This document shows, one piece after another, positions 3,065 to 26,916 of a DNA stretch of 28,240 nucleotides. The stretch's first letter is position 1; the number at the start of each line of letters is the position of its first letter. Origin of the DNA: a virus. The notes below the pieces were generated by a model that made no database searches, was not told where the DNA came from, and worked only from the letters and a program-made list of their open reading frames with translations. The stretch spans positions 1 through 28,240 of IMG/VR virus record IMGVR_UViG_3300048112_000194; one strand, written 5' to 3'. Both the position numbers and the translations under genes were made by a program.

Positions 3065-6000
3065 TTACCTATCAGCTCTAAGTGTTTGAGAGTTTATCTT
3101 CTCAACGATTTCGATGTCACTAACCTTAGCAGTGTTTAAGAACATTTCATGTGGCTCTGCTTTAATTTGGAATAAGTCTCCAAATGAGCCTGCACTGTTT
3201 TTAGGAATAATAACTATACTACCTATGTTACTGCCCAATCGTTGATGGACATAACTACTCAACTCTGTAAAGTAAAATGTTTCGCCGAACTCCCAATTCT
3301 CTATCGCAAAGAATGTGTTGAAGGCTTCTATTACTTTACTCTTAATCTCATTATCGCTCATAGTAGAACCTGCTAATTTAACAATTCTAAATTTAGCCTG
3401 ATCATTTGTTTCAGCGTCTGTGCCAAATAATAACTTGAACTCTGCACTTTTATAAACAAGCGTATCACTTGCACTTTTGAATTCATTTAGTTTTGCAAAC
3501 TCTGTAGACAACTGTGCAGGTGTTGGTGATAATGGAAACTCTGTTCCTGGTACCTTTTTATATTTTTTAATCTCATCGAAGTAGTTATTAGTTAAAACTA
3601 ACATCTCTACGACATTACTAATACTAGGATCTATACGCACATCTTTAGGTGCAACGTGTTTCCATTTAATTATAATTTCATCGTTTTCTATTAGTGCTGT
3701 GTTCTGTCCTGCTGACCTGCCGTTTCGCACATAGTAGTCAGTTGTCTCAACCGGTAAAACTGCTGAACCGTTACTGTTAAATATCATCTGATACATTTTC
3801 TTAGCAGTGTTATCATATATAACTAAACCATTCGAATTAGTAATTGCAGCTTCGCCTAAAGTACCTGTTACACTTTCTGGCACTTGACTGATATTCTTAA
3901 CAATCAATATGTCTGTTGTGCTTAGTGTTTCAATCTTTTGTGCATCACCATTTGTTAGTGTGTTTGCACTAAAGTCTGCTGTTATAGTTTGTTCGTTACG
4001 ATAATCTACAATGTTACCTGCTAACGGTCTAGTATAACTGTATCCATCGTAATCAGTGTAGTATTCAAAGAATACTAAATCACCGTTATTAACAAACTCT
4101 CTAAACTGTAGCGGTCTGTTAGGAACTAAGTCACCGTCAGTGTCTATCGGAGACACTACTACTTTTCTATTGTCGGTGTATCCATCGTCATACTTAACAG
4201 GAGCAACTACATTCCAATCAACACTACTTGCTAATTGTTCTTTTGATTGTTTGTAATTTACAACAACTCTATCTTGTGTTGCTTGTCCTGTGCTGTCAAA
4301 CGCATGTGTATAATTGTTGCTAAACATATTTGTAATAACTAGATTACCTGTTTGTGCTGCAACATTTGCATTTGCTAATAAAATTCTTCCTGCTTGTCCT
4401 GTATCAGCAGCATTATTAACTCCAAAACTTGTAGTACCAGTAGTTGTTGCTCTGTATGTTTCAAACATGTTTGTAGTAGTATTATAATCTCTGTATACAA
4501 CTTCTTCTGAAGCATTTATAATATTAAATCCAAATGTAGTATTACTAAAAGGAATAGTAATGTTTGAAGGTAAAGAATTAATTCTACCGCTGTTGTTTGC
4601 AATAGTAACATTTGCAGTTGTTGAGTTACCTATGCCAGCAACATCATAATGTGTATTCAATGATACTGTAGCACTGTTTACAAATACATTTGAAGCAAAA
4701 TTACCATCTCTGTATATTCCGCCACTTGTTAAATATTTAACTTCTACGTCATGCCATGTAGTTGATCTTGTTCTTAACGGAATGCCCGGGTCATAACTAC
4801 TAGGTGTATATTGAGCGCCTGTTTCGTCGCTTACCCAAACACTGCCTACTGTGCCTGCTGTAGGAGTCCATAAAAATGACTCTGCACTACCTGGCTTATA
4901 GTTTAGTGTTGTAAATTGTATTACATCTCTACTGGATTGATTATTGCTGTCTGCAACTTTAACATTATTAATGTTATAAAATTTTAAATCGTTTTTGCTT
5001 TGAACAACATATTGCTGTCCTCTCATAGTCACTGCATACTTGTAACTTTTTGAATCAATAGCACTGTAGTTAAAAAGTAATAACCAACTAGCATCCGAAC
5101 CAGTGCCGCCTTTGTTACCAGCATTGTTTAAAGCCCAATCTGATTTTTTGTCTAAATCTGCATTATCGATAACATACCATGTATCTTTATCAGTATCAAA
5201 ACCTAGTCCAAATGTTCTCTTGTTATTCATCTCAGTTGAGATACTTGTAATTTCTGCTGGTTGAATTATTTTACGCATAGTAGCAATATATTCTACTGCT
5301 TTCCAACCGTCTTGTATTGGAGCACTTAAACTAAATGGTCCTGTTGCTGTGGTTAGACCACTGTGCAATGTACCATTGTTAGCAACTCCTGTAATTCTTG
5401 CCCATGCATACTTAGATGCATCGTCTGGGTCTGCAAACTTAATAAAGTTGTTCTCTGTGAACATTGCAAATATTTTTGTGCCGTTATCTGAATATGATGT
5501 ATCTAGTACCTCAACTGAGCTATCACCAGTAGAAACAGTTTCATGGAAATAACCTGTAGCACTTGTTCCTAGCACAACTGGCAATGATTTCCATATAGCA
5601 TTCTTTGATGCTAATGAATAACGGTTTATGTCGTATAGTTCAGATGAATCACGGAACTGTTCGTATATAAAGTTATTGAGGTTTCTATCTTTTAGTATTA
5701 AAGGAATAGTAAAGTTTACCACTGCCGCAACAGGGTTGTCATCACTAATAGTAATGCCTGCTGTTCCTGGTACATCTTCTATGTACAGTGAACCATCGTT
5801 TGCAAAAGTTTCTAAATTTTGATATGTACCTGTTGGGTCATTAATATCAATAAAACGACTATGTCCAGCATGTGTTTTGTTTATTGCTTTTAGTTTAACA
5901 ATATTAGTTGTTTGACTAAAAGGAAATACATTATAGTCCTGAGCACTTACCATACGGTTTTGTGTGTAGTAAACCTGTGGAGCACGTTGCTTAATAGCAG

Positions 6001-19093: not shown

Positions 19094-20377
19094 ATGAAAT
19101 ATATTACAGCAGCACTAGTAGCGTTATTCCCACTTATCCTATCAGCACAAACATACACTAACGAAGTAGCAACTATCATCAACGATAATTGTGTAGTGTG
19201 TCACCGTTCTGGAGGCATAGGACCAATGGGCTTTGAAACATACGAGCAAGTACGTCCATGGGCACCTTTAATATCACTTAAAGTAATGAAAAGAGAAATG
19301 CCACCTTATGCATACGATCACGGCATAGGTATACAGGACTTGCAAGGTGATTGGCGTTTATCGCAAAAAGATATAGACACTGTAGTCGAGTGGGTAGATA
19401 CCGGAGCAAGGTATGGCGACCCTGACAAAGTAGTACAGCCAGTAAACCTAGGTGATCCGGAAGCATGGAGTTTCGAAGCAGATTTTGGAGCGCCGGATTC
19501 AATCATCGCAAGTGTGGCCATAGACATTCCAGCAAGTGGCAACGACTTGTGGCATAAACATAATGTTCCAACAGGACTAACCGAAGACCGTTGCATTAAA
19601 GCAATACAAGTTAAACCACGTGGCAATGCCAAAGCAGTAGTACATCATGCTAACAGCAGTATTATAACTGAGGGAGGCAGAGTGGGTATGTTAACTGAGT
19701 ATGCTATGGGAAAGTGGGGAGAGATAGTTCCTGCAGGAGTATGCAGAACTATTCCAGCCAACGCAGAAGTAGCATGGGATATTCACATGTTCCCAGGTGG
19801 ACTTGGGGCAATGGCACCAGGATCAGTTATTCGAGACAACGTGGTAGAGATTGGTCTTTGGTTATACAGCGAAGAGGAAAGCCAAGAATTGAAATACAAA
19901 CAAGACTTGAGTTTGTATCGCCTAGGAGACCAGGACGATATAGTTATCCCACCACATGGTTATTACATGACACAAGGCTTCCACAGTTTTGATCATCCAG
20001 TTAGACTAGATAGTTTTCAACCACACGGACACTTGCGTATGAACGCAGCAAGTTTGGAAATATTTTATCCTGAAACAGGACACACAGAACAAATTAGTCA
20101 AGTAAGTAATTGGAGTGCAACATGGCATCACAGTCATTTGTATGATCCAGACGTAGCACCACTCTTACCAGCAGGAGCAGTTATTGTTCTAAAGCAATGG
20201 TATGATAATACAGCAAAAAATCCAAATAATCCAGACCCTGATATGTGGGTAATGGGAGGCAGTAGAACAGGCGATGAAATGACACATGCTTGGTTAGCCA
20301 TTACACATCTAGATGATGAAGGATACAATAAACTAAAAGAGGAAAGAGATGAAACATTTAATATTGCTAGTAAGTAG
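19094..20377 (+). CDS. Exported c-type cytochrome / copper type II monooxygenase-like protein
   Basis: A 427-residue protein with an N-terminal signal peptide (about 1-18, ending LSA before QT), so it should be exported. Residues 22-110 are a mono-heme cytochrome c domain: C33-V-V-C36-H37 binds heme and M69 (KREMPPY) is the likely distal ligand. Residues about 120-410 resemble the two-domain copper type II ascorbate-dependent monooxygenases (PHM type). H184-H185 (AVVHH) and H231 could form one copper site, H311-G-H313 (QPHGHLRM) and M396 (GDEMTHAW) the other; H345, H346 and H348 add a further metal-like cluster. C167 and C217 could form a disulfide. I know such cytochrome-PHM-like fusions from free-living environmental bacteria, not as standard phage genes. 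Substrate is unknown. AGGAG lies 8 bases before the ATG; the lipoprotein gene overlaps its end. Confidence 0.85.
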   Translation: MKYITAALVALFPLILSAQTYTNEVATIINDNCVVCHRSGGIGPMGFETYEQVRPWAPLISLKVMKREMPPYAYDHGIGIQDLQGDWRLSQKDIDTVVEWVDTGARYGDPDKVVQPVNLGDPEAWSFEADFGAPDSIIASVAIDIPASGNDLWHKHNVPTGLTEDRCIKAIQVKPRGNAKAVVHHANSSIITEGGRVGMLTEYAMGKWGEIVPAGVCRTIPANAEVAWDIHMFPGGLGAMAPGSVIRDNVVEIGLWLYSEEESQELKYKQDLSLYRLGDQDDIVIPPHGYYMTQGFHSFDHPVRLDSFQPHGHLRMNAASLEIFYPETGHTEQISQVSNWSATWHHSHLYDPDVAPLLPAGAVIVLKQWYDNTAKNPNNPDPDMWVMGGSRTGDEMTHAWLAITHLDDEGYNKLKEERDETFNIASK

Positions 20378-20525
20378 TATTATTATTATAACAGGATGTT
20401 CTGGTACAGGCTACAATGGGCCGCATGAGTTTGATTGGATGCCTCACCCGGTGATATGGGAGAACAATATTAGAACTTGCAGGAGTGCGGATGTTTGTAG
20501 AGCAGAAACACTTTTTAGAAGATGA
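20349..20525 (+). CDS. Short lipoprotein overlapping the cytochrome gene
   Basis: A 58-residue ORF starting at the ATG inside the last 29 bases of the cytochrome gene, in another frame, with a strong GAGGA ribosome binding site 6 bases upstream. The sequence begins MKHLILLVSSIIIITGC, a textbook lipoprotein signal with lipobox ITGC and lipidated C17. The mature part is about 42 residues with two further cysteines (C44, C50), so it could carry one disulfide, and Trp/Pro/His residues (DWMPHPVIW). I do not recognise a family. Its position suggests a membrane anchor or partner for the exported cytochrome; an outer-membrane spanin (Rz1-like) is an alternative, since those are also short phage lipoproteins. 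Confidence 0.75.
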   Translation: MKHLILLVSSIIIITGCSGTGYNGPHEFDWMPHPVIWENNIRTCRSADVCRAETLFRR

Positions 20526-20635: not shown

Positions 20636-20853
20636 TTCGTTGTTACCGGCGGTGCCTGATTTCATTTGGTTATATTTATTGAGTGTTTTGATTAGCAGGT
20701 CTCTATCCATGGGAGGAATAAACCATGCCTCCGTCCAAGACACTGCACCTTCGCTGTATATTACTAATTCAGCAATATTTTTGTTTAGGGCAGTTTGATC
20801 GTCTTTGAGCTTACCTAGGTACGCCACTATGTCCGAAGGTTCGGAGTTTGCTA
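20627..20853 (-). CDS. Frameshift extension of the gp26-like protein
   Basis: This frame is open from before the gp26-like stop (20851-20853) to the TAG at 20627. It contains no ATG; the first usable start is a GTG at 20827 (66 residues) without a ribosome binding site, so independent translation looks poor. The natural reading is as the -1 continuation of the upstream gene: after ...DPVNFF it gives HSFLANSEPSDI, then the 66-residue segment with SEGAVSWTEAWFIPPMDRDL and IKTLNKYNQMK. The predicted fusion is 364 residues (21720-20627). A Trp-containing helix followed by a 'P..DR..li' motif resembles the extension encoded after the frameshift in tail assembly chaperone pairs of other long-tailed phages. 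Confidence 0.6.
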
Positions 20854-20872
20854 AGAAGCTGTGAAAAAATTT
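20832..20872 (-). promoter_or_regulatory. Candidate -1 ribosomal frameshift site
   Basis: On the minus strand, 20872-20863 reads AAATTTTTTC, in frame as A AAT TTT TTC; both A-AAT-TTT and T-TTT-TTC are X-XXY-YYZ heptamers. The zero-frame stop follows 9 bases after the slippery run. A hairpin TCCGA-ACCT-TCGGA (20845-20832) lies about 17 bases downstream and could stimulate slipping. Confidence 0.6.
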
Positions 20873-21720
20873 ACTGGGTCAAAGTTAACGCGGCTTTTGA
20901 ACACTACTGGTTCGCCTGCATCATCTGTACATTTCTCACACTGTAGTTTCATCTCGTGGTTGATACCAATTGAATTTAAATTAGCAATTTGCTCTTCAAT
21001 TTTCTTACCTACTGTGCCTTCAGCATTATCTAAAAACTCTGTGATATGTTTTCTATCTGTTACACTTTGCTTTTCGCCGTCTTCGTCAGTATAATCAATA
21101 CTAGAAATACTATCTACAATTAAACTAAAGTTTAGTTCTGCAATTTGCTTAAAGTTATCATTAAACAGTTTTAGTCTTTCCATTTCATTACTAACGTCTG
21201 CTAGTGCTTGTAAACTTCTAGTGCTTTGAAAATTTGTAATACCTGCTTGAATTGTACTAGCATAAGTGAACGGACGAACGTGAATTTCTAAACCGTTGTG
21301 TTCTACTGTGTACGATTCTTCTAAAACACCCATGGTGCCGATTGCTTGTTCAACACTAGCAACACCTTTTTGGTCTTCGTCACACTTTGGACATGGAGCA
21401 GATACTTCTACATCGTCTCCGTAAGTAGCACCTTGTACAGCAACTAACAATACATCGATGTCACTGCTTAACATTGCCCTAGCATTCTTTACGTTAGGTA
21501 CGCAACTGTGTATAACCTGTGCTACAGCTTCGCCGTTTAATAACGCATCAGGGTTTTTCATAATCATTTCGTCTTTTGCTGTCATTGCAAAGACAGGAAG
21601 TTCTAGCGTTTCTGGCATCTCTACTACTGCCGGCTCATAAAATTTGCCAGCACTTGGAATAGGTGCAAACAATTTTGGAGCTCTAAAATGCGAACTTAAT
21701 GGATTGTGTTTGTTTGTCAT
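20851..21720 (-). CDS. Baseplate hub assembly protein gp26-like (T4_baseplate family)
   Basis: A 289-residue protein of the T4 gp26/gp51-type baseplate assembly family. The N-terminal signature is clear: FAPIPSAGKFYEP, then LPVFAMTAKDEMIMKNPDAL and an AVAQVIHSCVPNV segment, as in proteins that assist hub assembly. Two CxxC pairs, C110-P-K-C113 and C261-E-K-C264, should form a zinc ribbon. T4 gp26 is 208 aa, so this is longer. Near the 3' end the minus strand reads A AAT TTT TTC, a tandem slippery site, and the -1 frame stays open for a further 78 residues. It is transcribed divergently from the oxygenase/tape-measure block, probably from GATAAATA at 21785. The alternative is a simple one-base assembly or mutation error in the A6 run. 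Confidence 0.8.
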   Translation of the reverse strand: MTNKHNPLSSHFRAPKLFAPIPSAGKFYEPAVVEMPETLELPVFAMTAKDEMIMKNPDALLNGEAVAQVIHSCVPNVKNARAMLSSDIDVLLVAVQGATYGDDVEVSAPCPKCDEDQKGVASVEQAIGTMGVLEESYTVEHNGLEIHVRPFTYASTIQAGITNFQSTRSLQALADVSNEMERLKLFNDNFKQIAELNFSLIVDSISSIDYTDEDGEKQSVTDRKHITEFLDNAEGTVGKKIEEQIANLNSIGINHEMKLQCEKCTDDAGEPVVFKSRVNFDPVNFFTAS

Positions 21721-21803: not shown

Positions 21804-21811
21804 TATAAATA
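21804..21811 (+). promoter_or_regulatory. Late promoter TATAAATA for the oxygenase-HD genes
   Basis: A perfect TATAAATA element ends 16 bases before the ATG at 21828. A GGTAAATA string follows at 21815-21822. This gives the downstream metabolic-type genes late timing, like the structural genes. Confidence 0.75.
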
Positions 21812-21827
21812 TCCGGTAAATATCAAT

Positions 21828-22397
21828 ATGAAACAAGAAGATTACTTTGCTAAAATAAAAGTAGATGCTACTAATCTTATGGATAGTTGTAATAATTGGA
21901 TGAAACAATTTCCAGACTTGATTTACACATACCGAACAGATTCTGATACACTTGTAGATGTAGCAGATATACCTGATAAAGATTTTGATAAATCGTTTAG
22001 AACATTTGATATGTGGCATCCTGAATTAAACTATACTCTTTCTAGTAATAATTTTTTAAAGAAGTTACATAAAAAATTTCCTATTAACAATATAGCAATA
22101 AACAATTTCCACCCAAATTTTTATTATAGGTTGCACACTGATTGGAGAAGAGGTGTAGCAATAAATATGCTAATAACAGGCACTGATAGTCATTGTTTAT
22201 TTGTAGACGACACGGATTTCATAGAATTAGATTATAAGCCAGGTGAACTGTATTTGTTTAATACACAACAGCCTCATACTATCACAAACTTCTCTGAACA
22301 ACGTACATTGTTTTCTATACAGTTTGTAGAAGGCAAAGATACATTATCGTATAATATGCTGTATGAGTATTTAAAAAATAACGGGTTAGTAGATTGA
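21828..22397 (+). CDS. 2-oxoglutarate/Fe(II)-dependent oxygenase-like protein
   Basis: A 189-residue protein with the metal and cosubstrate motif of Fe(II)/2-oxoglutarate oxygenases on a double-stranded beta-helix: H103-T-D105 (RLHTDWRRG), distal H150 (FNTQQPHTITNF) and R159 for 2-oxoglutarate, followed by a LFSIQF strand. Such proteins are frequent in marine T4-like phages; they hydroxylate proteins, nucleotides or small molecules using O2, and the substrate cannot be read from the sequence. The N-terminal 80 residues are less conserved in appearance. A perfect late promoter precedes it and the next gene, an HD-domain oxygenase-like protein, overlaps its stop, suggesting linked function. No signal peptide: cytoplasmic. 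Confidence 0.78.
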   Translation: MKQEDYFAKIKVDATNLMDSCNNWMKQFPDLIYTYRTDSDTLVDVADIPDKDFDKSFRTFDMWHPELNYTLSSNNFLKKLHKKFPINNIAINNFHPNFYYRLHTDWRRGVAINMLITGTDSHCLFVDDTDFIELDYKPGELYLFNTQQPHTITNFSEQRTLFSIQFVEGKDTLSYNMLYEYLKNNGLVD

Positions 22398-22930
22398 AAT
22401 TAACAAACTTTAAAAACTTTGAAGAAAGCACAGCCAGAGACTGGCAGTTAATTGCTAAAGTCTATAAAAAAGACAAAAAGAAACTTGTTAATAAATTTAT
22501 AGAACAATTAAAGTTACTAGAAGGCGACTTTGGCGGCTTTCCTGTTTGTAGATACGAACATTGCTTACAAACAGCAACAAGAGCATACCGGGCCGGCGAA
22601 GACGACGAATATATTGCAGTTGCATTATTACACGACATAGGCGATACACTTAGTCCTGATAACCATGGCGAAGTTATAGGTGCTATGTTAAAACAATATA
22701 TCAGCGAAGAAAACTATTTTTTACTAGTACACCACACTGATTTTCAAGGATACTACTATTACCAGCATATAGGTAAATCACGTGACCTACGTGATAAGTT
22801 CAAAGATAGCCCTCATTACGAACACACTGAACGATTCTGCAGACTGTATGATAGCCAAAGTTTTGACGATTCGTATGAATCAGAACCATTAGAGTTCTTT
22901 ATCCCATATATTGCTAAACTTCTTAATTAA
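22394..22930 (+). CDS. HD-domain protein related to PhnZ-like diiron oxygenases
   Basis: A 178-residue HD-superfamily protein. The start is TTG at 22394, overlapping the oxygenase stop (TTGA), which implies translational coupling. Candidate metal ligands are H56 (CRYEHCLQTATRA), H80-D81 (LLHDIGD), H91 (DNHGEV), H113/H114 (LVHHTDF) and D153 (LYDSQSFDD). The GEDDEYIAVALLHDIGD stretch and later FQGYYYYQHIG match a bacterial family usually annotated as 'HD domain protein' (COG4341-like), whose studied relative PhnZ uses a mixed-valent diiron centre to cleave hydroxylated phosphonate with O2. In that pathway PhnZ works after PhnY, a 2-oxoglutarate oxygenase, a striking parallel with the gene just upstream. 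The phosphonate role is inference; an HD phosphohydrolase acting on nucleotides is the main alternative. Confidence 0.8.
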   Translation: MKLTNFKNFEESTARDWQLIAKVYKKDKKKLVNKFIEQLKLLEGDFGGFPVCRYEHCLQTATRAYRAGEDDEYIAVALLHDIGDTLSPDNHGEVIGAMLKQYISEENYFLLVHHTDFQGYYYYQHIGKSRDLRDKFKDSPHYEHTERFCRLYDSQSFDDSYESEPLEFFIPYIAKLLN

Positions 22931-22980: not shown

Positions 22981-25900
22981 ATGTCAAAGGTACTATTGCC
23001 TAACAATGAAGAAGCGATAATAGCAGATTTTGCACTAGAAAGCACTGCTCAGCTTATGCTGGCTCAATTATCAAAACTCAATGGTAATAAAGATTGGGAA
23101 AGGTTGGTTGACCATGCTAAGGAAAATGCAAAAGATCAAGAGGCATTCTATAACCAAACAAAAAAATACCAACAAGAATTACTTAAAGAAACACAAGACC
23201 TCGGTGACGAAATTGAGAAAGGTAACAAACAACAACAAAAACAAGTTTCAGGCCCTACTGTAGGTAATGCTGGTCCAAGTACCGGTCAAATAAGCAAAGC
23301 AGCAACTGAAGCTGCAGATTCACTAGACGGCTTTAATAAAGGTGCAGCAAGAGGCGAAAAAATCTTTGCTGGTGTGTATGGTGCAATTGCATCATCGATC
23401 AAAGGTGCAGCCACAGCAATCACAGTTTACGGTGGAATACTGTTAGACACGTTTACTGGTTTAGGTAATGAACTAAATGAGATGACAAAAGTTGGTGTAG
23501 GATTCACTGACGGTCTCGGCCAAGGTGGCATGAGTGCTACAAGTGCTATGATGCAATTGAGTAGCATGGGTATAGATGCAGCCGGCACATTAAAGAACTT
23601 GAGCGGTGTTGTTCAAACAATGAGCAAGAAATCGTTTACAGAATTTACACAGGCATTCATGGACGCAACTGACAGTGGTGTAGAGCTAGGCATGAGTCTA
23701 GACGACAGTGTTGAGCGTATGGGTGCAGAATTAAGAAAAAGGCAAGCAATGGGTGTTGCCGACGGCATGAATCAAGCCAGGATGAATGCACAAATTACCA
23801 AGACTATCAAGACACAACAAAAATATGCAAGTGTACTTGGTGAGAGTGTCGACGAGATAGTTAATTTTACAGACAGTTTAATACAGCAAACACCAGTACT
23901 TACTTCTAGTTTATTAAGGATGGACAGAGAATTAAGAGGTAAAGTTATATCAGGTATAACAGACTTTGCTGGCACTATGAGAGCTATGGGTGGAGAAGCC
24001 GGTGGTGACATAGCGGCTGCTATGACAGAGGCTGCTGCAAGTGGGCAAATGGGCTTCAGTGATTCCATGGTTGGGTATGTTACAGCATTACCTAGTTTAC
24101 AAGGCCCAATGAATAATTATATTGATGCAATCAAGAACGGTACACTGAGTCAAGAAGATGCTGAGCAAATGGCTCTAGACATGACTTCGCAGTTAGGTAA
24201 TCTCAGTAAAGCAGAAAAAGATAGAATATTCTTGCTAGACAGAGCTGGCGATGCACAGGCTGCTAGTATGGCAAAGGCTATTACACAGTTTGAAGCATCT
24301 GCTAAAAAGTTAAAAGACCTAGGTCCAGACTTATCAATGGAAGGTGTGCAAAAAGGAACTAACACATTATCAAAAATAATGAAGCAGATCACTGGTTCGT
24401 TTGAAGGTATAAAAACTGGCTTCCTACAAGGATTTGGTAATATCACCAAAGGCGGCGAAGGGTTAAGCGATACTTTCGAGAAAATGAAAAAGACCGTTAT
24501 GGACTCTATTAGTAGAACAATGGAGAAATTTAATTTAACCGGCGGCGTATTTGAGGAAATGTCCGGCGCTGGAATTAGTTTAGGCGAACAGTTAGGCGAA
24601 AGATTACCTGGCATGCTAGAAACGTTTGCAGAATATGTAGGCATGGCTATAGAAGCGTTACCAGGTATTTGGGAAGGTATTAAAAGTTTCATAAATGTTA
24701 TGAAGACAGTTGGTAGCATACTAGGTGTAGTTATGAACGTAGTGTCCGGTGCTATTACTATAGCAACTAATGCTTTCAATGCACTCTTCTCGCCTATTGA
24801 TGCAGTAGCAAGTATATTTACTAAAGTTGAGGGCGAAACTACAGGCTTCCTAGCAACACTTGGTAAACTAGCAGGTCTTACAGGATTAGTAGTACTTGGA
24901 TTTAAAGCAGTAAGCGGTGTGCTAGGCCTCTTTGGTAAATCAATGCCATCGATGTTTGCTAACATGGGCAAGTCTTTGATGGCCGGTACTAAGAACATGA
25001 TGGGCAAAGTCACAAGCGGACTAAGCAAAGCAACAGGTGGAAAACTTGATGGCTTGTTCGGTAAAGCCAAAGACAAGCTAACAGGCAAATCAAAAGAAAT
25101 GGACATGGGCTCAAAAGCCATGGACACTGCAAGTAAGAAATCTAAGAGCTTTACAAAGTCATTAGCAACAGGCATGAAAGATATATCCAAAGGTATATCT
25201 AGTGTGCTAACAAATTTAAGCAAAGGTATTAGCAACTCTGTAAGCAATATTGCAACAGGCATACAAAAAGGTATAAGTGCATTATCAAAAGGAATCGCAG
25301 ACGCAGGTAAAGGTATTGGTAAAGGCATAGGCGGCTTATTAGAAGGTACATTAACAGGACTAGGCAAAGGCTTAGCGGTACTAGGTAAACCTAATGTATT
25401 ACTGGGCGTTACAGCACTCATAGGTATTGGTGCAGCAATGTTTGTAACAGGCAAAGCATTCCAGCAGTTCTCAGACATTAACTGGGCAGGTGTAGGCGCA
25501 GGTGCTATAGCGTTAGGTGTACTAGGAGCAGCAGCATTCTTGTTAGCACCTATAGCACCTGTAATAGGCGTAGGTGCATTAGCGATTGGTGCATTAGGTT
25601 TAGCATTACTTCCATTTGCGGCAGCAGTTAAAATAGCAGCACCAGCAATGGTTGAATTAATGGGCAGTTTTCAACTGCTTAACGATGTAGATCCTAAAAA
25701 TGTATTATTGTTAGGCCCAGCACTAGTATCACTAGCGGCCGGTATGGCAGCATTTAGTGCAGGTGGATTAGTAAGCGGCATACTAGATGGTCTAGGCAGT
25801 TTGCTTGGGCAAGACTCGCCATTTGATAAACTTGCTAAAATAGGAGCGGCAGCTCCAGCAATCAATGAAATGACATCAAATATGGGTTCATTTGGCGATA

Positions 25901-26916
25901 CAGTAGACGCATTTAACGAAGCAATGGCTGACCTAGACGGAGATGCTATTAAGGATTCGTTTGAAACAATGGCAGAAGGTATTGACACATTAAATGAATC
26001 AATGTCTGAGATTAGTCTTGTTTCTATAATGAAGATGGCTGCTATGAAGTCATTTGGTCCTGTACAACAAAAAACAGCATCAGAAGAAACAGAACCAGAA
26101 GACGCATCTAAAGAAACAGCACCGGTTGAACTAACACAAAAAGATTATGCCCTTGCAAGATTGGGCGATCCAGACGCACAGGCAAAAGTGGAGGCCAACG
26201 ATCCTAGGTCTCAGGAAGATAAAGATAGAGAAGCTGCATTTAATAATTCTGATATTGGGCAAATGCTAAACGACATTGAAGTCCAGCCACTTAGTGTAGA
26301 CGAAGCACAGGTAGCATTAGATACAGCAATAGCAGCACAGGCAAAAGGCATTAATGATTTTATAGATGCATATGATCAAATGGCATTAGATGCTGATGTA
26401 AGATTTGCACAAATGGATCTAGATGATGCTAAACGAGCAGAAGTAGACAAAGAAGCAGCAACTAGCAACGATGCTAAGCCAGCAGAAGTAGACAAAGTAG
26501 ACAAAGAAGCAGCAACTAGCAACGATGATAAAACAGCAGAAGTAGACAAAGAAGCAGCAACTAAGAGTCGTGCAGAGATGACTCCGTTTGAACGCAAACA
26601 GGCCCGAGTCAAAAGTAGAAGAGCCACAATGGAGAATGGTGGCATGGCTGCAAGTGTATCTCCAGAAGATGCTGCTAGAGCTAAAGCACAGGCTCCAGCA
26701 ATGGCTAAAGCCAGTATGCCAACTGGTACTAAAGTACAAACTGCTCCAAAACCAGAAAGTGCTACCAGTACAGAACAAGCAACAGATTCGAAATCAACTA
26801 ATGAACCAACATCAAATAAAGAATTATTTGAGCAGATGGTTAAAAATCAAGAACAAACCAATAAACTACTTAAATCAGGAAACAGAATTACTAGTGATTT
26901 AAGTGATGAATTCTAA
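22981..26916 (+). CDS. Tail length tape measure protein (gp29-like role)
   Basis: A 1311-residue protein with the build of a myovirus tape measure. It has a helical, charged N-terminus (about 1-90), a long Gly/Ala/Ser-rich helical body, and hydrophobic segments about 540-650 and 805-900 (GVLGAAAFLLAPIAPVIGVG and neighbours) that could insert in the host membrane during DNA entry. A repetitive region about 720-800 has spaced Lys-Gly-Ile motifs (KGISS, KGISN, KGISA, KGIGK). It has no enzymatic motif that I can see. It is much longer than T4 gp29 (590 aa); length would set tail length. The C-terminus from about 1040 is acidic and low-complexity, with three AEVDKEAAT repeats at 1153-1194. A strong GAGAGGA ribosome binding site precedes the ATG. 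Large reverse-strand ORFs inside it are shadows. Confidence 0.85.
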   Translation: MSKVLLPNNEEAIIADFALESTAQLMLAQLSKLNGNKDWERLVDHAKENAKDQEAFYNQTKKYQQELLKETQDLGDEIEKGNKQQQKQVSGPTVGNAGPSTGQISKAATEAADSLDGFNKGAARGEKIFAGVYGAIASSIKGAATAITVYGGILLDTFTGLGNELNEMTKVGVGFTDGLGQGGMSATSAMMQLSSMGIDAAGTLKNLSGVVQTMSKKSFTEFTQAFMDATDSGVELGMSLDDSVERMGAELRKRQAMGVADGMNQARMNAQITKTIKTQQKYASVLGESVDEIVNFTDSLIQQTPVLTSSLLRMDRELRGKVISGITDFAGTMRAMGGEAGGDIAAAMTEAAASGQMGFSDSMVGYVTALPSLQGPMNNYIDAIKNGTLSQEDAEQMALDMTSQLGNLSKAEKDRIFLLDRAGDAQAASMAKAITQFEASAKKLKDLGPDLSMEGVQKGTNTLSKIMKQITGSFEGIKTGFLQGFGNITKGGEGLSDTFEKMKKTVMDSISRTMEKFNLTGGVFEEMSGAGISLGEQLGERLPGMLETFAEYVGMAIEALPGIWEGIKSFINVMKTVGSILGVVMNVVSGAITIATNAFNALFSPIDAVASIFTKVEGETTGFLATLGKLAGLTGLVVLGFKAVSGVLGLFGKSMPSMFANMGKSLMAGTKNMMGKVTSGLSKATGGKLDGLFGKAKDKLTGKSKEMDMGSKAMDTASKKSKSFTKSLATGMKDISKGISSVLTNLSKGISNSVSNIATGIQKGISALSKGIADAGKGIGKGIGGLLEGTLTGLGKGLAVLGKPNVLLGVTALIGIGAAMFVTGKAFQQFSDINWAGVGAGAIALGVLGAAAFLLAPIAPVIGVGALAIGALGLALLPFAAAVKIAAPAMVELMGSFQLLNDVDPKNVLLLGPALVSLAAGMAAFSAGGLVSGILDGLGSLLGQDSPFDKLAKIGAAAPAINEMTSNMGSFGDTVDAFNEAMADLDGDAIKDSFETMAEGIDTLNESMSEISLVSIMKMAAMKSFGPVQQKTASEETEPEDASKETAPVELTQKDYALARLGDPDAQAKVEANDPRSQEDKDREAAFNNSDIGQMLNDIEVQPLSVDEAQVALDTAIAAQAKGINDFIDAYDQMALDADVRFAQMDLDDAKRAEVDKEAATSNDAKPAEVDKVDKEAATSNDDKTAEVDKEAATKSRAEMTPFERKQARVKSRRATMENGGMAASVSPEDAARAKAQAPAMAKASMPTGTKVQTAPKPESATSTEQATDSKSTNEPTSNKELFEQMVKNQEQTNKLLKSGNRITSDLSDEF
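26437..26562 (+). repeat. Three in-frame repeats in tape measure C-terminus
   Basis: Three near-identical DNA units start at 26437, 26482 and 26536, each encoding AEVDKEAAT; the second has an internal VDK duplication. The DNA match is close enough to suggest recent slippage or unequal recombination. They add charged linker length near the protein's end. Confidence 0.8.

Follow-up and report, generated by a model that had tools for sequence, protein, structure and literature searches.

Three HD-domain oxygenases, myo-inositol oxygenase (MIOX), PhnZ and TmpB, were listed in a 2020 review, which also gives H..HD..H..H..D as the motif of these enzymes and defines the YxxE substrate loop (PMC8177086). 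A later review added a PhnZ from Gimesia maris and a fungal fusion protein, PhoF (PMC10574752, 2023). A viral phnZ gene has been listed from seamount sediments (PMC11018836), and the literature that we searched contained no description of a phage pair of a phnZ-like HD gene and a 2-oxoglutarate (2OG) oxygenase gene.

In the 2-aminoethylphosphonate pathway, the gene for PhnZ (4N6W/4MLM) adjoins that of the 2OG oxygenase PhnY, and TmpB (6NPA) has the same two-gene layout with TmpA. TmpA belongs to the TauD/GBBH family. MIOX (2HUO) shares the HD diiron oxygenase fold and ligand order, is larger, and has neither a partner oxygenase nor a YxxE loop. Here we describe a pair of overlapping phage genes that resembles these systems in layout, HD fold and metal ligands, and that differs from the phosphonate enzymes in the signatures of its HD protein and in the family of its oxygenase.

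Results

The analysed stretch of DNA (the window) is an entire IMG/VR virus record, 28,240 bases long, and probably a fragment. Its gene content is of the T4 type (late sigma factor, SbcCD-like subunits, SegE-like endonuclease, baseplate hub and wedge). For its hub and sigma proteins, the nearest relatives among annotated phages, 32-47% identical, belong to Sinorhizobium phage Phosso, with 469 kb, and to phages of the Pseudomonas PA5oct group, with ≈287 kb; from this likeness we infer that its own genome may be very large. Two ORFs sit between the hub gene on the minus strand and a large tail gene on the plus strand (Table 1).

Table 1. Features of the oxygenase-HD gene pair and its flanks in the window.
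Feature	Position	Strand	Basis or remark
T4-type baseplate hub gene, left flank of cassette	20851..21720	-	PF12322 3.8e-16, PHROG 150; flank kept in cassette-free phages
Oxygenase gene	21828..22397	+	Intact ORF, 189 aa, ATG start
Predicted Fe ligands H103-T104-D105 of oxygenase	22134..22142	+	Alignment of four phages
H150 ... R159, predicted third Fe ligand and 2OG-binding Arg	22275..22304	+	Alignment of four phages
Start/stop overlap TTGA	22394..22397	+	HD TTG and oxygenase TGA share four bases
HD-domain gene	22394..22930	+	Intact ORF, 178 aa, TTG start
HD-domain protein, 'FQG' subfamily, predicted diiron oxygenase	22394..22930	+	Pfam HD 5.4e-7, fold, hexad, tree
F46-G-G-F49, in place of PhnZ/TmpB YxxE substrate loop	22529..22540	+	Alignment
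H56, predicted metal ligand	22559..22561	+	Invariant in both subfamilies
H80-D81, HD motif	22631..22636	+	Invariant in both subfamilies
H91, predicted metal ligand	22664..22666	+	Invariant in both subfamilies
H114, predicted metal ligand	22733..22735	+	Invariant in both subfamilies
F117-Q118-G119, in place of A-K-R of phosphonate group	22742..22750	+	Alignment
D153, predicted metal ligand	22850..22852	+	One E among 41 phosphonate-type sequences
Large tail gene, right flank	22981..26916	+	ORF; tape-measure-like by position and size; flanks empty site in L196-L200 and L203-L205

The overlap of the HD start with the oxygenase stop that the original prediction had noted recurs in relatives as TTGA (L002), ATGA (L017) or a 14-nt overlap (L003), and the TTG start is therefore credible. 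We read the hub-tail junction in 12 contigs, comprising the window and 11 others with a hub-gene relative. Both genes were present in four, one gene alone in none, and neither in eight, which amount to fewer independent observations because L196-L198 are alike in hub identity and junction, as are L199-L200. The carriers are the window, L195, L201 and L202 (the last three being the contigs L002, L003 and L017, respectively), with identical oxygenase-HD order; the search for the same pair in other phages was thus successful, and at the same junction. The gap between the hub and tail genes in cassette-free phages is 160 bases in L196 and L199 and 113 bases in L204. When empty junctions were compared with the window, homology extended on the left as far as the start codon (ATG) of the oxygenase and resumed on the right near the stop codon of the HD gene, so that the insert consists of the two ORFs alone. 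Presence and absence of the insert require two to three changes on the hub tree. The oxygenase and HD genes form an all-or-none auxiliary cassette of T4-type phages, carried as one unit at the hub-tail junction.

Among the pair-bearing phages, identity to the window is 97-54% for the HD protein and 92-41% for the oxygenase. Both genes are under purifying selection, with dN/dS values of 0.080 (oxygenase) and 0.048 (HD) between the window and L002; these ratios and the conservation rule out chance ORFs.

We modelled the HD protein with AF2 from 33 sequences (pLDDT 95.8). Foldseek placed the model closest to TmpB (3.3e-5) and PhnZ (1.2e-4), followed by a gap, with MIOX at a probability of 0.99. 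The VIA-align Z scores were 17.8 for PhnZ (152 residues, 2.9 Å), 17.0 for TmpB and 12.8 for MIOX, compared to at most 8.6 for the others listed, including the HD hydrolases. The six residues H56, H80, D81, H91, H114 and D153, plus Q59, are invariant in 33 relatives. These results bear out the proposed likeness to PhnZ, the nearest solved folds being PhnZ and TmpB and the diiron hexad being complete, and they match the list of expected ligands except that H114, and not H113, is the conserved member of that histidine pair. By predicted fold and ligand order, the protein would fall within the wide MIOX/PhnZ/TmpB group. The same hexad is found in dinuclear HD hydrolases as well, which counts against the diiron oxygenase reading. 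Annotated phage records contained only two weak partial matches to the protein.

The HD protein was then compared with the phosphonate enzymes in an alignment of 46 proteins of its own type and 41 TmpB-, Phn-HD- or PhnZ1-like proteins, for which 'phosphonate-type' is a label by similarity, many of them scoring below the curated family cut-offs. One D-to-E change aside, the hexad is common to both groups. By contrast, the YxxE, HDxGH and AKR signatures, near-universal in the 41, are missing from the window protein and almost throughout its relatives. Position 46 is Y in 41/41 phosphonate-type proteins, mixed in the other group and F in the window; position 49 is E in 36/41 compared to F, Y or C; position 84 is H in 39/41 (HDxGH) compared to D in 46/46 (HDxGD); and positions 117-119 are A-K-R in 41/41 compared to F-Q-G (F-Q-x in three). 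The window protein departs from the phosphonate enzymes, PhnZ and TmpB included, at six signature positions. The NCBIfam models Phn-HD (5.5e-9), TmpB (4.8e-7) and PhnZ1 (3.6e-5) match its core, but with scores of 23-36 bits against cut-offs of 215-300 and over only ≈40-60 residues. In a midpoint-rooted tree whose bootstrap was not fully settled, a single branch of length 3.04 with 100/100 support splits the two groups. The HD protein falls on the side of bacterial proteins that carry F..F, HDxGD and FQG. Sequence comparison indicates that it is not a PhnZ or a TmpB and belongs to a sister subfamily of TmpB/Phn-HD.

The HD proteins of the four pair-bearing phages form one clade (100/99), and that of L018 branches elsewhere in the tree, which implies that phages acquired such HD genes at least twice. 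In L018, another T4-like phage, the FQG-type gene (4920-5576) stands alone, overlapping an SbcC-like gene and lacking an oxygenase. Tandem pairs of FQG-type HD genes occur in L211 and L212, where one copy each has Y and E at positions 46 and 49 in addition to FQG.

The subfamily is present in 82 of the 289 alphaproteobacterial genomes sampled. Bacterial 'FQG' proteins (e.g., of Hyphomonas and Sphingobium) share 46-53% full-length identity, the hexad, FQG and the subfamily with the phage protein, and are annotated as HD domain-containing proteins or phosphohydrolases. All of 42 further alphaproteobacterial members have the hexad and all but one have F-Q; position 84 is D, Q, F, Y or H in divergent members. 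Unlike the phage gene, the close bacterial relatives lack a 2OG neighbour. The 80 closest loci have mixed neighbours, and no relative of the phage oxygenase lies beside these 80 HD genes. Among 87 neighbour proteins at 33 of these loci, the family seen most often is class II aldolase (5), and the 25 most frequent families include none of the 2OG type.

At 40 loci picked for sequence spread and not for neighbours, 6/81 neighbour proteins in a first set matched 2OG-FeII_Oxy/DIOX_N and 2/51 in a second set matched TauD. In 15 of these genomes, which contain 38 PF03171 matches in ≈64 Mb, 7/28 HD genes have a PF03171 2OG oxygenase gene no more than 2 kb away, compared to ≈0.08 expected at random, a count made by hand from two tables over genomes that are not independent. 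The seven cases are G289, G234, G130, G073, G165, G168 and G037, and the last two look like one context. Their HD proteins are divergent (28-42% identity to the window), with H, F or Y as residue 84, a point against the two-step reading discussed below. A TauD/TfdA-type gene also adjoins an HD relative on a Pseudomonas plasmid (L011). The pairing had been called suggestive; in its support, the pair behaves as a unit, and divergent bacterial relatives of the HD protein adjoin 2OG oxygenases far above chance.

The AF2 model of the oxygenase, made from four sequences, is a double-stranded beta-helix (pLDDT 77.8) with poor confidence at residues 39-57. Foldseek retrieved P4H, PHD2 and AspH from the PDB and cyanophage 2OG oxygenases from BFVD, and VIA-align returned ALKBH7/AlkB at Z 9-10; the model thus shows a predicted fold of the general prolyl-hydroxylase/AspH/AlkB kind. 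The HxD...H...R triad (H103-T-D105, H150, R159) is kept in 4/4 pair-bearing phages. With this triad and fold the protein is a candidate 2OG/Fe(II) oxygenase for which metal and 2OG binding are predicted. No Pfam or NCBIfam family could be assigned (only Cupin_2 at E 0.14 in Pfam and nothing in NCBIfam), and sequence searches gave no match in phage records, plasmid records or the PDB. Neither the PhyH model (the family of PhnY) nor the TauD model (that of TmpA) matched in Pfam or NCBIfam, in agreement with the earlier remark that the oxygenase does not clearly resemble PhnY.

The oxygenase matches PHROG 274 at E 2e-6. The 'DNA endonuclease V' label of this family is contradicted for the window protein by the 2OG triad and beta-helix fold; PHROG 274 and BFVD entry Q58MQ0 are 2OG-fold phage proteins for which the label is apparently wrong. 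Cyanophage 2OG oxygenases of PHROG 274 share fold and triad with the window protein. A profile scan with the four-sequence alignment found relatives in 33 viral contigs. Three carry the pair. In the other 30, the available flanks, short in some cases, showed no HD gene as partner; one of these contigs, L131, matched weakly. Two tandem, mutually overlapping copies of the phage oxygenase occur in L126 (4259-5396) and L127 (44-1175).

Discussion

We tentatively favour, at somewhat short of an even balance, a two-gene cassette of T4-type phages that would perform a two-step oxidation. If the pair works as PhnY-PhnZ and TmpA-TmpB do, the first protein would act as a 2OG/Fe(II) hydroxylase that installs a hydroxyl group, and the second, as a putative mixed-valent diiron oxygenase of the PhnZ/TmpB/MIOX fold, would use O2 to break the adjacent C-X bond without needing an external reductant. 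The fold, the hexad, the cassette behaviour and the repeated bacterial neighbourhood lead us to favour a 2OG hydroxylase whose product passes to an HD diiron oxygenase; this reaction logic is plausible for the pair, and we infer that the two steps are coupled. Because the HD protein keeps the iron-binding residues but differs at six signature positions, a two-step oxidation of another compound is the likeliest reading. Most likely, the substrate is something other than a phosphonate, and our guess from the bacterial gene neighbourhoods is a carboxylate or quaternary-amine metabolite. A complete phage pathway of oxidative cleavage, in which a 2OG hydroxylase is followed by an FQG-type HD diiron oxygenase acting on a non-phosphonate substrate, and whose logic evolved independently in bacteria that use other 2OG families, is a more doubtful proposition, and would, if true, represent a new activity class of HD oxygenases.

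It is unlikely, to a slightly greater degree, that two unrelated accessory genes were inserted together once, the oxygenase hydroxylating a protein or nucleic acid and the HD protein acting otherwise. The 30 oxygenase contigs without HD and the lone HD gene of L018 are consistent with such an event and imply that neither gene needs the other everywhere; moreover, the single clade of the four paired HD proteins means that the pairing is possibly of single origin. However, the 4/8/0 distribution of both, neither and one gene holds despite two to three changes on the hub tree, the start/stop overlap persists among relatives with oxygenases only 41% identical, and separate 2OG-HD neighbourhoods occur in bacteria.

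Less credible again is a hydrolase role for the HD protein, for instance on a nucleotide or another phosphoester, with the oxygenase working independently or on that same modified nucleotide. Dinuclear HD hydrolases do exist, such as the dinuclear Fe diphosphatase YqeK (PMC8177086). Nucleotide enzymes are also common in T4-type phages. Against this, the HD hydrolase folds score far below PhnZ, TmpB and MIOX in the structural comparison, and the phosphohydrolase PHROG match reaches only E 0.075. Phosphonate scavenging, in which a phage PhnY/PhnZ would free phosphate from aminoethylphosphonate or a related compound, is rejected as highly improbable because signatures, NCBIfam scores and tree all stand against it, as does the lack of a PhyH or TauD match for the oxygenase, despite the nearest folds and the NCBIfam core matches; what survives of the proposed analogy to PhnY/PhnZ is the fold, the hexad, the unit behaviour and the bacterial 2OG neighbours.

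The phage pair is compact and comes with no other pathway genes, which makes it convenient for seeking a new activity. Through it, attention is drawn to a large bacterial HD subfamily that has the full diiron ligand set, lacks the phosphonate signatures and includes divergent members found repeatedly beside 2OG oxygenases. Such HD proteins should not be labelled phnZ auxiliary genes.

Other features of the region

The stretch TATAAATA (window 21804-21811, plus strand), 24 bases 5' of the oxygenase ATG, is kept in L002 and lies in a segment that cassette-free phages share. We give it no weight as a late promoter because the window shows no excess of the motif (2 occurrences compared to 3.5 expected).

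The window also encodes a 427-aa protein (19094-20377, plus strand) that has a signal peptide and a cytochrome-like CVVCH motif, with weak Pfam matches to cytochromes, as well as His-rich motifs that recall copper monooxygenases. It had no match among phage or plasmid records; it is kept in L002 and L003 and absent from L017 and the cassette-free phages. At its place, L017 has IMP dehydrogenase/GMP reductase-like and cupin-like genes (1170-2629). A small predicted lipoprotein is encoded at 20349-20525 (plus strand) of the window, and its relatives recur by the SegE/hub region in L195-L201.
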